A DNA stretch of 36,134 nt from a virus. Location of the stretch: positions 1-36,134 of IMG/VR virus record IMGVR_UViG_3300009181_000182, one strand, 5' to 3'. Below the pieces are notes generated by a model. It had not been told where the DNA came from, made no database searches, and saw only the letters and a list, made by a program, of their open reading frames with translations. Position numbers and translations under genes: made by a program. Every line of letters begins with the position of its first letter. Position 1 is the first letter of the stretch. Shown in pieces: positions 1,576 through 33,963 of this stretch.

Positions 1576-1678
1576 TGTGTGATTCCTTTGTGTTTGTGAT
1601 ATTTAATAGTGTCAATACAATCGCGCTACATACGATGTAGGCGATTTCGATTTGTGCGAATACTGGTAGCTCGTTCAT
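1562..1678 (-). CDS. Small single-span membrane peptide, 38 aa
   Basis: A 38-codon frame starts MNELPVFAQIEIAYIV. Its start overlaps the stop of the upstream gene as ATGA, with GGAG in the end of that gene as ribosome binding site. Residues 5-28 form one hydrophobic segment (QIEIAYIVCSAIVLTLL), consistent with a single transmembrane helix. A short polar tail follows. It fills the otherwise unexplained gap 1576-1674. The function is unknown. Confidence 0.6.
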   Translation of the reverse strand: MNELPVFAQIEIAYIVCSAIVLTLLNITNTKESHNDTR

Positions 1679-1911
1679 GGTTTCTCCGCGTAGAAGTCTT
1701 CAGTATTCGACGGATTATCTTTTGCGAAGTCTATGAAAAAACTTTCTTCAGTACCTTGATGATGCCAAAATGTGTCTTCACATTCTTCGTCATCGTCATA
1801 TAGGGCGATTAGGACTTCCGTTCCGTTTTCTTCATCGGGTTCGTCTTTCCAAAATATGAGTGCTTCAAATACGCTGCGTTCGGGCTGTGGACTTGTGGAC
1901 TGATCTTTCAT
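1675..1911 (-). CDS. Acidic hypothetical protein, 78 aa
   Basis: A 78-residue, strongly acidic protein (DEPDEENGTE, YDDDEECED). Residues 4-8 (QSTSP) are encoded by two abutting AGTCCACA repeats. The start overlaps the upstream stop as ATGA, with AAGG upstream in the end of that gene. Very acidic small early proteins are often DNA mimics or inhibitors of host enzymes in phages, but nothing here proves that. A promoter-like site lies inside the gene at 1796-1814. Confidence 0.65.
   Translation of the reverse strand: MKDQSTSPQPERSVFEALIFWKDEPDEENGTEVLIALYDDDEECEDTFWHHQGTEESFFIDFAKDNPSNTEDFYAEKP
1796..1814 (-). promoter_or_regulatory. Promoter-like site C, candidate phage polymerase promoter
   Basis: The minus strand reads TCCTAATCGCCCTATATGA. 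This is the motif found behind the RNA polymerase gene (30658-30682) with one base missing after TAATC. It lies inside the 78-residue acidic gene, where it encodes VLIALYD, so a promoter role would be intragenic. Near identity over 19 bases to an intergenic copy is unlikely by chance. Confidence 0.45.
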
Positions 1912-5315: not shown

Positions 5316-5340
5316 CAGTCAGATAGAGCAGATTAGGAAA
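5316..5340 (-). promoter_or_regulatory. Promoter-like site B, candidate phage polymerase promoter
   Basis: The minus strand reads TTTCCTAATCTGC, then TCTATCTGACTG. It matches the site behind the RNA polymerase gene (30658-30682) at 22 of 25 positions. It lies after the terminator at 5405-5430 and before the left-hand gene block, the expected place for a promoter of a new transcription unit. From here to 5138 there is no gene; I see an A-rich leader and a small inverted repeat (CCTAG/CTAGG, 5276-5289). Confidence 0.6.
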
Positions 5341-5404: not shown

Positions 5405-5430
5405 AAAACTGGAAGCGTGCTTCCACTTTT
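5405..5430. terminator. Bidirectional rho-independent terminator
   Basis: TGGAAG (5410-5415) pairs with CTTCCA (5420-5425) around a four-base loop. AAAA (5405-5408) and TTTT (5427-5430) flank the stem, giving a U-run on either strand. It lies downstream of the terminase gene and both tRNA-like elements and upstream of promoter-like site B, so it probably ends the late transcript. Confidence 0.65.
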
Positions 5431-5567
5431 ATTCGGACGTTGATTCCTAGAGAAACCTTGTTTTTAATCTGCAATCGCCACTACTCTAGAGTTTACTATG
5501 GGTTGATTTCTGTATTATGTTAAATCGTAAATCGCTGATTTCGACAAAACGGACTCTGCGAATTTAG

Positions 5568-5641
5568 TGGATCAACTTGGATTCAAACCAAGGTATTCCC
5601 GATTATGAGTCGGGTGCATTGGGTCGCTATGCTATTGATCC
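5568..5641 (-). tRNA. tRNA with CAT anticodon (Met or Ile2), non-canonical elbow
   Basis: A 74-nt cloverleaf with every stem fully paired: acceptor GGATCAA/TTGATCC, D stem GCAT/ATGC, anticodon stem CCCGA/TCGGG, T stem CTTGG/CCAAG. The anticodon loop CTCATAA gives CAT. U8, A14, G15 with C48, A21, U33 and discriminator A73 are present. G1-C72 argues against initiator tRNA, leaving elongator Met or the lysidine-modified Ile tRNA. CCA is not encoded. The D loop AGCGACCCA lacks the G18G19 pair, and the T loop TTTGAAT has U in place of C56, so the usual D-loop/T-loop contact cannot form in the standard way. Confidence 0.8.
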
Positions 5642-5773: not shown

Positions 5774-7435
5774 CTAGGAGTGTTTGAACCAACGGTTGTC
5801 TTTGTTTGTGCTGCCGTTCATTTCCTTGATCTTGGCGAGAATCCACTTCTCGCGGCTCTTTTGGGCGGCGATGTCGGGATCGTGCGCCATGTCGGTCTTC
5901 CACATTTTGCAAGCCATTGCCAGGGCTTCTATCCTGTCGTCGTGGTCAAGGCAACCGCGTAGTCTTGTTATGCGGGTTAATTGGCGTTGCAGGGTCTTAT
6001 CTGCGGCCACTGTGGGGTGCATAATGAGCCGATGCTGGTTTAGGATCGGTTCTAGGGTTTCGATGATTCTGATCTCTTTTTGACCAGATACGCGAACGGT
6101 TTCAATGCTGCATCCCCATATTTCCTCTCCTGCGTTGTCCGTATCGTTTGCGAGCCTGTTTACGGCTGGCTGGAGCAATTCGACCATCATGCCCTGCCCG
6201 AAGTTGTCTTCGACATACATGGTGTCAACATGGTGTTCTTTGGCTAGTAAAGCGATGGTTTCAATGACCTGGGAGCTGTATCCCCCCGCCATTCCGTCGA
6301 TATGCAGTACCCATAGGTAACCGTTAAGATGGGCGACTACGGCGATGGCTGTTTCGTCCGTTCCCTTGCCCGATGGATCGACCCACATTCGGATGCCTGT
6401 GTAGGGTTGCCACTCCTTATCAAACATTATAGGTGCGTGGTAGCAATCGTCAACAAAGCCTAGTGAAATGATGTCCTCGCAGCGGGTAGTTTGCCCTGCT
6501 GAATTGGTCTTTCCCCAGGCTATTGAAGCGGGTGCTTTGGTCGGCTGCATAGCAAAGACTATGACATCTGATAGCCTTAGTGGAGTCTTTGTATCTTCTC
6601 CGAGTTTCCAGCGCAGAAGGTATTGCATTGAATACTTTGATCGACCCTCGGCTGATTCACGCGCCGCCATTTCCTCTTTGTTGAATCGCTCTGGCCATGC
6701 GAGTTCGCCTTCTTCCATGTCGGCGTACATATCTCCGAGCGGGCAAGATACGCCTTCTGATCCTGGGTGACTCACTGGCCATGCTTTCATGGCGTAGCCG
6801 CCGTTCATAAGGGCTTCGTATACCGTTTCTTCGTGATGGGGCGTTCCCAGATATATAATGTCCCCGCCAGGGATCAATATATTCTCAAATTCGGCCACCT
6901 GATCTTTCAAGCGGCGACGCATATCCATAGTGAGTGTGTTCTCTGAAGTTTCAATATCGTCGCCGATGACGCAAGTTGAGCGCGAGCCTGTGATCTGACC
7001 AGTGATGCCGTAGGCGCAGAATGACGGCGTTCGATCTGGCTCTGTTCCTGCAACGTCAAACATGAGTGCTGAATCGCGCGCTCCAGTTGCTCGATCTGGA
7101 ACTAGGTGCTGCAAGAATCGTGCTTGCCCTAGCCACTTACGCGCTAGGTATAACGACTCCTTTGCTGCTCGCTCTGACTTTGATACATAGGTAATGCGTT
7201 CTGTTGCTGCGTTGGTGAACAACCGCCAAAGGCAATAGGCAATGGTGATCCATGTCTTTGCCGCGCCACGCCACGCCAGCACTCCGCGTCGCCTTGCACC
7301 AGTTTGTAGGTACTTGGCTATTTCGATGTGATGGCGTGGGATGGATGGCATTCCGATTTCAATCCAGAGTTGTTCTAGAAAGAATGGGAAGTCAGTCGCT
7401 AGTTTTTTTAGATACTCCTGCGTCTTATCATTCAT
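5774..7435 (-). CDS. Terminase large subunit (T7 gp19-like)
   Basis: The ATPase-nuclease motor that packages DNA into the prohead, 553 residues against 586 for T7 gp19. An atypical Walker A WRGAAKT lies at residues 55-61, and the Walker B CVIGDD ends at residue 160. The nuclease domain follows with WVDPSGKGTDETAIAVV, then MYVEDNFGQGM and LDHDDRIEALAMA near the C-terminus, the acidic positions expected of the RNase H-like fold. The start overlaps the stop of the upstream gene as TAATG. It is the last protein gene of the late block; the tRNA-like elements follow directly. Confidence 0.93.
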   Translation of the reverse strand: MNDKTQEYLKKLATDFPFFLEQLWIEIGMPSIPRHHIEIAKYLQTGARRRGVLAWRGAAKTWITIAYCLWRLFTNAATERITYVSKSERAAKESLYLARKWLGQARFLQHLVPDRATGARDSALMFDVAGTEPDRTPSFCAYGITGQITGSRSTCVIGDDIETSENTLTMDMRRRLKDQVAEFENILIPGGDIIYLGTPHHEETVYEALMNGGYAMKAWPVSHPGSEGVSCPLGDMYADMEEGELAWPERFNKEEMAARESAEGRSKYSMQYLLRWKLGEDTKTPLRLSDVIVFAMQPTKAPASIAWGKTNSAGQTTRCEDIISLGFVDDCYHAPIMFDKEWQPYTGIRMWVDPSGKGTDETAIAVVAHLNGYLWVLHIDGMAGGYSSQVIETIALLAKEHHVDTMYVEDNFGQGMMVELLQPAVNRLANDTDNAGEEIWGCSIETVRVSGQKEIRIIETLEPILNQHRLIMHPTVAADKTLQRQLTRITRLRGCLDHDDRIEALAMACKMWKTDMAHDPDIAAQKSREKWILAKIKEMNGSTNKDNRWFKHS

Positions 7436-24002: not shown

Positions 24003-24136
24003 AGTGATTTCTCCTTTAGAGAATTGTTTGTTTAGTGAGATATTTATTAGACACGGTGACTTGAGGTATCTATGTTTTTTATGGGTCGCTTTCGCGGGTA
24101 TCCATTATTTACATAGGCTGTAGTCGAAAAGACACA

Positions 24137-24154
24137 CTTCGCTGTTAAGCGAAG
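24137..24154 (-). terminator. Hairpin with U-run upstream of the capsid gene
   Basis: CTTCGCT (24137-24143) and AGCGAAG (24148-24154) form a perfect seven-pair stem with a four-base loop, followed on the minus strand by TGTGTCTTTTC. It lies between the scaffold-proximal gene and the capsid leader and may stop or attenuate upstream transcripts. A single AGTCCACA motif in the opposite orientation overlaps it at 24156-24163. Confidence 0.5.
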
Positions 24155-24178
24155 CAGTCCACACAAGGAATAGCCCTA

Positions 24179-24196
24179 CCAGTGCGCGAACACTGG
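24179..24196 (-). other. Hairpin in the scaffold-capsid intergenic region
   Basis: CCAGTG (24179-24184) and CACTGG (24191-24196) form a six-pair stem with loop CGCGAA, 16 bases after the stop codon at 24212. Together with the 24137-24154 hairpin it suggests a processed or attenuated leader upstream of capsid mRNA. It has no U-run of its own. Confidence 0.5.
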
Positions 24197-24211
24197 CAAG
24201 GCCGCAGGAGC

Positions 24212-30038: not shown

Positions 30039-30439
30039 AGGTTTGGGATGCTTATATCTGTCCCGCTATAATCTTGGCTAATACCGCTAAATGGGTCTAC
30101 AATCGTAGAATTGCGTGTTGTTTTTGTTTTTAACTGTCGTCGCAATTTCTCAATATCTGCATTACTTGCATCTGATTGTTGCAACTGAAGATAGGCATTA
30201 TCTTTGTTCAGCTGGTTTGTTGTGTTTACCGCTTCTTGTTTCTGAATACGGCTTTGTTCTTCTGCTGCGGCTGCTGCTTGTGCTGCGGCTGCTGCCTGTC
30301 TTGATTGCGCTCCCTTGGCTGCTTGGGCTGCTTGATTCGATGAGATTGCTCCAGCACCAGCGGTTGCCGCTGCGCTTGCCGCCATCATAATTCCGATCAT
30401 AAGTACGTCATCTATTCCAAAGATTGCTAGAAAGTGCAT
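30035..30439 (-). CDS. Ala/Gln-rich membrane-associated virion-type protein, 134 aa
   Basis: The start is taken at the ATG at 30437-30439, preceded by AAGGGGG with good spacing; a GTG one codon earlier is possible. The N-terminus is hydrophobic (MHFLAIFGIDDVLMIGIMMA, ASAAATAGAGAISS). An Ala/Gln-rich helix follows (NQAAQAAKGAQSRQAAAAAQ), then a polar coiled region (KDNAYLQLQQSDASNADIEK). It resembles the composition of gp14-like internal proteins but is much shorter. It overlaps both neighbours. No certain function. Confidence 0.65.
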   Translation of the reverse strand: MHFLAIFGIDDVLMIGIMMAASAAATAGAGAISSNQAAQAAKGAQSRQAAAAAQAAAAAEEQSRIQKQEAVNTTNQLNKDNAYLQLQQSDASNADIEKLRRQLKTKTTRNSTIVDPFSGISQDYSGTDISIPNL

Positions 30440-30660
30440 CACATTGCCCCCTTGGACTTGGCCAGATAGATAAGTTCCTCAACTACTGAACGGCGAGCGC
30501 ATTGCCAATTCACCATATCTCGCGCTGATTCTGAAATCGGGCCATTTATTTCGATTGGCAAAATGGCTCGATCTAGTGCGCGAATGAGTTCGACTACGGT
30601 TCCTGGCAGCACCTCTGGATATTGAGTTTCCCTACTTGCCACCTCGTTTTCGGATTTCAT
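30439..30660 (-). CDS. Small hypothetical protein, 73 aa
   Basis: 73 residues, soluble, with a helical segment (GTVVELIRALDRAILPIEIN) and RDMVNWQCARRSVVEELIYL. It is the first gene after the RNA polymerase and before the late genes. Its ATG forms the last three bases of promoter-like site A and has no ribosome binding site, so the mRNA might be leaderless or a later start (GTG) might be used. No family recognised. Confidence 0.6.
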   Translation of the reverse strand: MKSENEVASRETQYPEVLPGTVVELIRALDRAILPIEINGPISESARDMVNWQCARRSVVEELIYLAKSKGAM

Positions 30661-30682
30661 TCATATAGGGCAGATTAGGAAA
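30658..30682 (-). promoter_or_regulatory. Promoter-like site A, candidate phage polymerase promoter
   Basis: The minus strand reads TTTCCTAATCTGC, then CCTATATGAATG. It overlaps the polymerase stop codon and leads into the structural genes. It matches site B (5316-5340) at 22 of 25 positions and site C (1796-1814) with one gap over 20. The conserved CTAT(A/C)TGA resembles the CTATA end of T7/SP6-family promoters. Phage polymerase promoters just behind the polymerase gene are known in phiKMV-like phages. Confidence 0.6.
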
Positions 30683-33153: not shown

Positions 33154-33963
33154 TTATTCTGTGCAGTCGCACGGCCTCGAATCATCTAGTTGGTCTTGGA
33201 ACAATTTGCCTTGTGTAGTGACTTGAACTAATAAGTCTTTGTACATTGCACGGTCTTTTCTGAATTTCCCGCCAACTAATTCTTCTTGCTTTGCCCACCA
33301 GTCTGCTGTTGCTGGTGAGTGTTCAATTACTCGTTCTGTTCTACTTTGGCTTTTTAAAAAACATAAATCACAATTACCGAAAGCTTTGTCATTGTTGGGA
33401 AGCATTAAATCAAATTCACTTTGATTCCAATATGACATGATCGTTTCTTCCGTTGCATCAGCATCGGCAAGTGGCAAAGCAATATCTCTTGTTGTATCTC
33501 CGCGAATCTTTGCAACTCGTCTTGGTTCGTCTGCTCGCAAGCCAAGAGCTGTTGTATATTTATCTAGGCCTATAGATTCCATATATTTTTTAATTGGGAT
33601 TACTTTAAGATCGCTTGTGCAAAATCTCGCTACTGGATTTGGCAAAAACTTACGTTTCCTAATTAGTTCTGCAAAATAGAATCCATCCCTATTTGCCGTT
33701 TCAAAGGTAACGGCTTCAAACCTATTACCATCGGGCCTGTATTCAATCCAGGTAATTGGACACCATCGTTGTTCTATTTCGTGGACAAAATTCAGAGTTG
33801 ATTCATGCTCTTTGCCAGTGTTTGCGAAACAAACCACTCCCCCAGTTGGCAATTTGCCTTCGTAGGCATCTAAGATTTGTCGCAACATATACCCACTTGT
33901 GCGTCCACCGCTGAACGAAACTACGAATGGCGGCTCAATTTTGTATGGGTTCATTTTTTTCAT
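33154..33963 (-). CDS. PAPS-reductase-like (PP-loop) protein, 269 aa
   Basis: SGGRTS at residues 18-23 is the PP-loop that binds ATP or PAPS. CFANTGKEHESTLNFV, NPVARFCTSDLKVIPIKKYM, LGLRADEPRRVAKIRG and NCDLCFLK follow in the order of a phage PAPS-reductase-like family. The last Cys pair, with CDC near the C-terminus, may hold a metal or Fe-S centre. Relatives include DndC of the phosphorothioate DNA modification pathway and sulfate-assimilation enzymes. A role in thiolating DNA or tRNA, or in sulfur supply, is inference. The gene precedes the RNA polymerase by one base. Confidence 0.78.
   Translation of the reverse strand: MKKMNPYKIEPPFVVSFSGGRTSGYMLRQILDAYEGKLPTGGVVCFANTGKEHESTLNFVHEIEQRWCPITWIEYRPDGNRFEAVTFETANRDGFYFAELIRKRKFLPNPVARFCTSDLKVIPIKKYMESIGLDKYTTALGLRADEPRRVAKIRGDTTRDIALPLADADATEETIMSYWNQSEFDLMLPNNDKAFGNCDLCFLKSQSRTERVIEHSPATADWWAKQEELVGGKFRKDRAMYKDLLVQVTTQGKLFQDQLDDSRPCDCTE

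Follow-up and report, generated by a model that had tools for sequence, protein, structure and literature searches.

Why does a 25-base sequence directly behind a phage RNA polymerase gene recur beyond the far end of the late genes of the same genome, and could it be the promoter that this polymerase reads? When copies are few in a genome, the promoters of divergent T7-type polymerases are difficult to predict. The window analysed here, a stretch of 36,134 nucleotides, belongs to a T7-like phage, an uncultured bacterial virus from a lake, and does not cover it in full; PHROGs mark in it genes for RNA polymerase, head-tail adaptor (portal), scaffold/assembly, major capsid and terminase. One relative (G002/L005) joins both window ends by about 4.9 kb absent from the window. 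Read in the order of transcription, the left block comes first, then the missing part, the replication genes and the polymerase; site A follows, then the structural genes, terL, a terminator-like hairpin and site B, near the expected genome end, after which the left block comes again (Table 1). A phosphoadenosine phosphosulfate reductase-like gene (33154-33963, minus) lies directly upstream of the polymerase, and a tRNA-Met (CAT) gene (5567-5641, minus), which was all that a search for RNA families found, lies in the interval that separates terL from site B. Aligning the terminase to genomes gave three differently named metagenome-bin contigs and one distant match, with no consistent host among them.

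Table 1. Positions of the sites and neighbouring features in the window
Feature	Positions	Strand	Remarks
Site A	30661..30680	minus	Candidate phage RNA polymerase promoter core TCCTAATCTGCCCTATATGA; 25-mer 30658-30682
Site B	5319..5338	minus	Candidate phage RNA polymerase promoter core TCCTAATCTGCTCTATCTGA; 25-mer 5316-5340
Site C	1796..1814	minus	TCCTAATCGCCCTATATGA, site A with one T deleted; 19-base match
Single-subunit RNA polymerase, 836 aa	30675..33185	minus	PHROG 414, E 1.5e-166; solved T7 and mitochondrial RNA polymerases (PDB)
73-aa gene of unknown function, starts at site A	30439..30660	minus	Kept across the clade
Terminase large subunit (terL), last of the late genes ahead of site B	5774..7435	minus	PHROG 38, E 3.9e-100
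Hairpin TGGAAGCGTGCTTCCA, upstream of B	5410..5425		A/T runs on both flanks
First left-block gene downstream of B, 121 aa	4772..5137	minus	Small conserved protein
78-aa coding sequence holding site C	1675..1911	minus	

Two matching sites in the window

All three sites lie on the strand of the genes, as both direct reading and scanning of the sequence indicate, and the sequence-only reading, which had reported three near-identical sites in one orientation, holds in its positions, in the 22 of 25 bases shared by the 25-mers of A and B, and in the one-gap match of C. It had further called two of the sites intergenic; this is true of B, between terL and the left block, and not strictly of A, since A shares bases with the stop codon of the polymerase gene (TAA, 30675-30677) and its 25-mer takes in the ATG of the next gene (30658-30660), directly before which the core ends. 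A and B are the sole same-strand pair of 25-mers in the whole window with at least 22 identical bases, and beyond A, B and C the next-best core matches in a scan of the window carry at least five mismatches. Because such a pair also turns up in 6 of 132 windows shuffled by dinucleotide (about 5%), the likeness of A and B is modest evidence when taken alone. With shuffling restricted to the two stretches concerned, namely 40 nt at the polymerase stop and the 636-nt gap after terL, the match was reached in none of 2000 shuffles. Exact and relaxed searches for motifs like A and B in all viral contigs returned only the same phage.

The same two positions in relatives

With terminase and portal as queries, some thirty related contigs were found, most of them 63-74% identical to the window's proteins. 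A polymerase is present in 8 of the 19 relative records searched, and a query with the small gene behind A gave more; the polymerases of these uncultured relatives are 45-49% identical to that of the window. No relative with more than 80% DNA identity spans A or B, and G002 ends some 140 bases before B is reached. Immediately after the polymerase gene, the relatives carry a short spacer with (C/T)ATRTG and then the ATG of the same small gene. The core at this end is CATGTGATA in G006 and G016 (read as CCATGTG-ATA-ATG), CATGTGATATG in G015 (CCATGTG-AT-ATG), GGTATGTGATA in G008 (GGTATGTG-AT-ATG), TATGTGATG in G014 and G017 (GTATGTG-ATG), CCCTATGTGAG in L071 (CCCTATGTG-AG-ATG) and, 11 bases ahead of the ATG, TTATATG in L037. 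Neither the spacing to the ATG nor the reading register is constant, so what is conserved here is DNA or RNA and not protein.

At the other end, terL in the relatives is followed by a matching ACGTCCGAATAAAA-hairpin and then, at the position of site B, by motifs whose versions include CCCTATGTGG and CTATAGGGG. The core reads CCCTATGTGG in G010 and G011, CCCTATAGGGG in G009, GGTATGGGGTA in G008, GGTATAGGGAGA in L093 and ACTATAGGGGGG in G005-G007, with TATAGGG present in several of these sites. Exactly one coding-strand copy of CTATAGGG or CTATGTGG occurs in each of G005, G007, G009, G010 and G011, every time at this place. Related motifs thus stand at both orthologous positions, with G006, whose two sites are unlike, as the exception. 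In a ranking of 72,242 positions by a matrix built from the relatives alone, A comes 70th and B 208th, so the short core is weakly specific by itself, and the matrix was dropped as a genome-wide detector because the core is too short. The first gene behind B was also seen to contain an HExxH-like motif in the versions of several relatives (L019-L022, L093), and many phage contigs without this terminase carry a similar protein.

The two positions also change together by lineage. In a second lineage (L071/G010) another motif, AAACTRTCCCTATGTGRG, is common to both, which none of 3000 shuffles matched; the L071 polymerase-end site agrees with the terL-end site of G010 in 19 of 22 bases and with that of G011 in 21 of 27 (0 of 3000 shuffles each). 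As these sites lie on separate contigs, they make a pair from one clade and not from one proven genome. In G008 the pattern GGTATGKGRTA, written after both sites had been seen, matches exactly twice in 42 kb, at these two positions (21 of 2000 shuffles). The polymerase-end and terL-end sites of G006 are no more alike than chance allows (1700 of 2000 shuffles). Across lineages, the cores align with one inserted base (window AATCTG-CCCTATATGA, L071 AAACTGTCCCTATGTGA). Such paired change would be expected if the polymerase and its few promoters drift together.

Probable phage promoters and the alternatives

The genome encodes a T7-type single-subunit RNA polymerase and carries a recurrent coding-strand motif, one copy of which stands between the polymerase gene and the ORF that follows. 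We consider it very probable that A and B are promoters read by this polymerase. The sequence-only reading had proposed as much for all three sites; the positions and the lineage-specific versions in relatives favor it for A and B, and the coding location and synonymous changes of C speak against it there. Neither of the two outcomes that it had named as damaging, many random hits and a lack of conservation upstream of orthologous genes, was found for A and B. Site A, directly behind the polymerase gene, would start the late (structural) operon, and site B, behind terL and the terminator-like hairpin, would start transcription where the late block finishes, leading into the left block, at roughly the place of the end promoters in T7. 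The likely anatomy is TAAT as an A/T-rich element upstream, CTGCYC as the specificity element, TATMT as the melting element and a start at the next purine; the window sites hold TAAT and TATMT-GA, and the start base is a prediction.

How does this compare with characterized systems? Among short-tailed phages, the representative ones carry one or more promoters in the interval from the polymerase gene to the following ORF, and promoters are few in Syn5 and KP34 (PMC9624206). The promoter of VSW-3, a phage from a plateau lake, is TTAATTGGGCCACCTATA with start GTA, mapped by 5'-RACE (PMC9624206); it shares with the window sites a TAAT element, a C-rich middle and CTATA before the start, as well as few copies per genome, intergenic DNA and discovery through its location behind the polymerase gene (PMC9624206), and differs in middle sequence and spacing (TAATTGGGCCACCTATA vs TAATCTGCYCTATMT) and in being mapped rather than predicted. 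In T7, 26 bases separate the polymerase gene from phi1.1A downstream of it, and gene order (polymerase, A, structural genes) makes site A correspond to that promoter in place. T7 promoters such as phi1.1A (TAATACGACTCACTATAG) likewise stand behind the polymerase gene and have an A/T-rich upstream element and TATA, but their middle is CGACTCA where the window has CTGCYC, their copies are many against two, and the gene after phi1.1A has an ordinary leader, unlike what is predicted for the window. The window sites accordingly do not match the T7 consensus TAATACGACTCACTATAG (as quoted in PMC10134795), the middle element being different. In LUZ100, a divergent T7-like polymerase also has its own 17-bp motif at positions conserved relative to T7, with eight promoters mapped by transcript starts (PMC10134795) against two predicted here. 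The putative promoter of the KP34 group, AGCCTATAGC...GCTATGTGAA, likewise occurs in two copies per genome and has CTATAG and CTATGTGAA (PMC4411677); it is longer and lies near early-middle genes, and its role there is unproven (PMC4411677). Judged by sequence, then, the candidate sites are of a known type of promoter with a different middle sequence, and the earlier suggestion of a new specificity is a fair one, the core being neither that of T7 nor that of the mapped VSW-3 promoter, though of the same kind.

Could A and B be something other than promoters? Just two copies, one of which (B) follows terL close to where the genome is expected to end, might also suit binding or processing sites of another phage factor (concatemer-cutting, nicking or replication-origin), and for a conserved motif present twice, single-strand nick sites have been offered as an alternative function (PMC4411677). 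Yet one copy always stands directly behind the polymerase gene, the position of a T7-type promoter, and the TATAGGG of several terL-end sites is the initiation signature of such promoters, which leaves this account improbable. That the motif adjoins the start codon in most lineages would fit a reading of (C/T)ATRTG at A as an element for starting translation of the 73-aa gene, or as a -10 of a host promoter for that gene, the match at B being a separate matter. This is decidedly improbable, as the B match spans 25 bases, including sequence well upstream, and lies in non-coding DNA, the second lineage repeats it, the spacing to the ATG varies (0, 1, 2, 3 or 11 nt), and no -35 element is evident by eye. 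Even the frequency of equally similar pairs in shuffled windows does little for chance or neutral duplication as the source of the A/B likeness, which we regard as extremely improbable, because both copies stand at positions where relatives keep related motifs.

Site C poses a different question, namely whether it is a third, internal promoter that arose by synonymous changes in this lineage, which would be compatible with A and B being polymerase promoters. Its match to A (19 bases with one gap) is expected by chance at about 5e-6 by our own estimate, and it ranks first on its strand with the matrix from relatives alone; on these two grounds a recent internal promoter is conceivable. Its location inside a gene and its history nonetheless make it doubtful as a promoter. 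The one relative covering it (L005/G002) reads TTTTAATCGCCTTGTATGA and encodes the same VLIALYDDD through four differences, all synonymous, and the stretch has diverged like its surroundings (79% vs 84%). In addition, C is one base shorter than A and B, and G008 has no third copy of its motif. We therefore do not count C as an equal third site, a status that is unproven, and think an internal promoter there rather unlikely.

With A and B read as polymerase promoters, position and lineage-by-lineage comparison yield an explicit consensus for at least two polymerase lineages, TCCTAATCTGCYCTATMTGA for the window and AAACTRTCCCTATGTGRG for L071/G010, which makes the predicted enzyme-promoter pairs directly testable.

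Polymerase kinship and the leaders of two late genes

In a PDB search, the window polymerase scores higher against the mitochondrial enzymes of yeast (323 bits) and human (281) than against T7 (213), and the G008 polymerase shows the same preference; the polymerase of RHEph01, among the best known phage matches, prefers T7 (488 vs 260). Trees of the catalytic part group the six clade members with the two mitochondrial enzymes at 100/100, first with nine other phage polymerases for comparison and then with twelve, the ones closest to that of yeast among them; the trees are unrooted and of small sample, and yeast and human are represented in them by the segments printed in alignments. By BLAST score, the lead of the clade over Caulobacter phage S2B is slight for yeast. 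In an alignment, the specificity loop of the clade polymerase, including those of the window, L043 and L071, equals the yeast loop in length. Clade and mitochondrial RNA polymerases thus appear as one group in these trees, with support of 100/100, which makes the clade useful for studying the origin of organelle polymerases and their promoters.

Where would the late message begin? At A, the first transcribed base would lie 0-2 nt before the ATG, so that the mRNA of the 73-aa gene would be nearly leaderless. The sequence-only reading had noted that this gene has no ribosome binding site, and indeed it lacks a Shine-Dalgarno sequence, whereas an AAGGA-like one is usual in the window's genes and 27 of the 45 listed window ORFs have one with at least four matching bases. 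The leaderless mRNA that it had raised as a possibility gains support, because the ATG lies within 0-3 nt of the core in the window and also at six of the seven distinct sites of relatives, L037 having 11 nt. Given a start at the purine after TATRT, we infer a leader of 1-4 nt at every site but that of L037. In known phages with T7-type polymerases, the spacers behind the polymerase gene are ordinary and longer. Given this spacing and the lack of a Shine-Dalgarno sequence, a nearly leaderless late mRNA is the likely, though predicted, product of site A, and its translation would be leaderless too. Literature searches for leaderless transcripts in phages, or for these phages themselves, turned up nothing specific. 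A promoter fused to a start codon, if true, would offer a simple way for leaderless mRNA to arise naturally. The full picture, in which an uncultured clade whose polymerase is the nearest sampled phage kin of the mitochondrial ones uses only two promoters of new specificity, the late one fused to a start codon and giving a late mRNA that is leaderless or nearly so, is one that we put forward tentatively, as less than an even bet.

A separate conserved leader lies upstream of the major capsid gene. This region was considered as a further promoter and set aside, as no promoter motif was seen and conserved RNA structure was found instead. The leader, of about 200 nt (24003-24211, minus), is kept in eight clade members and consists of hairpins followed by a GGAYACCC...GGCC structure. 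It has no Rfam match, and with two-sided changes at 10 of its 18 predicted pairs, it is possibly a new structured RNA.
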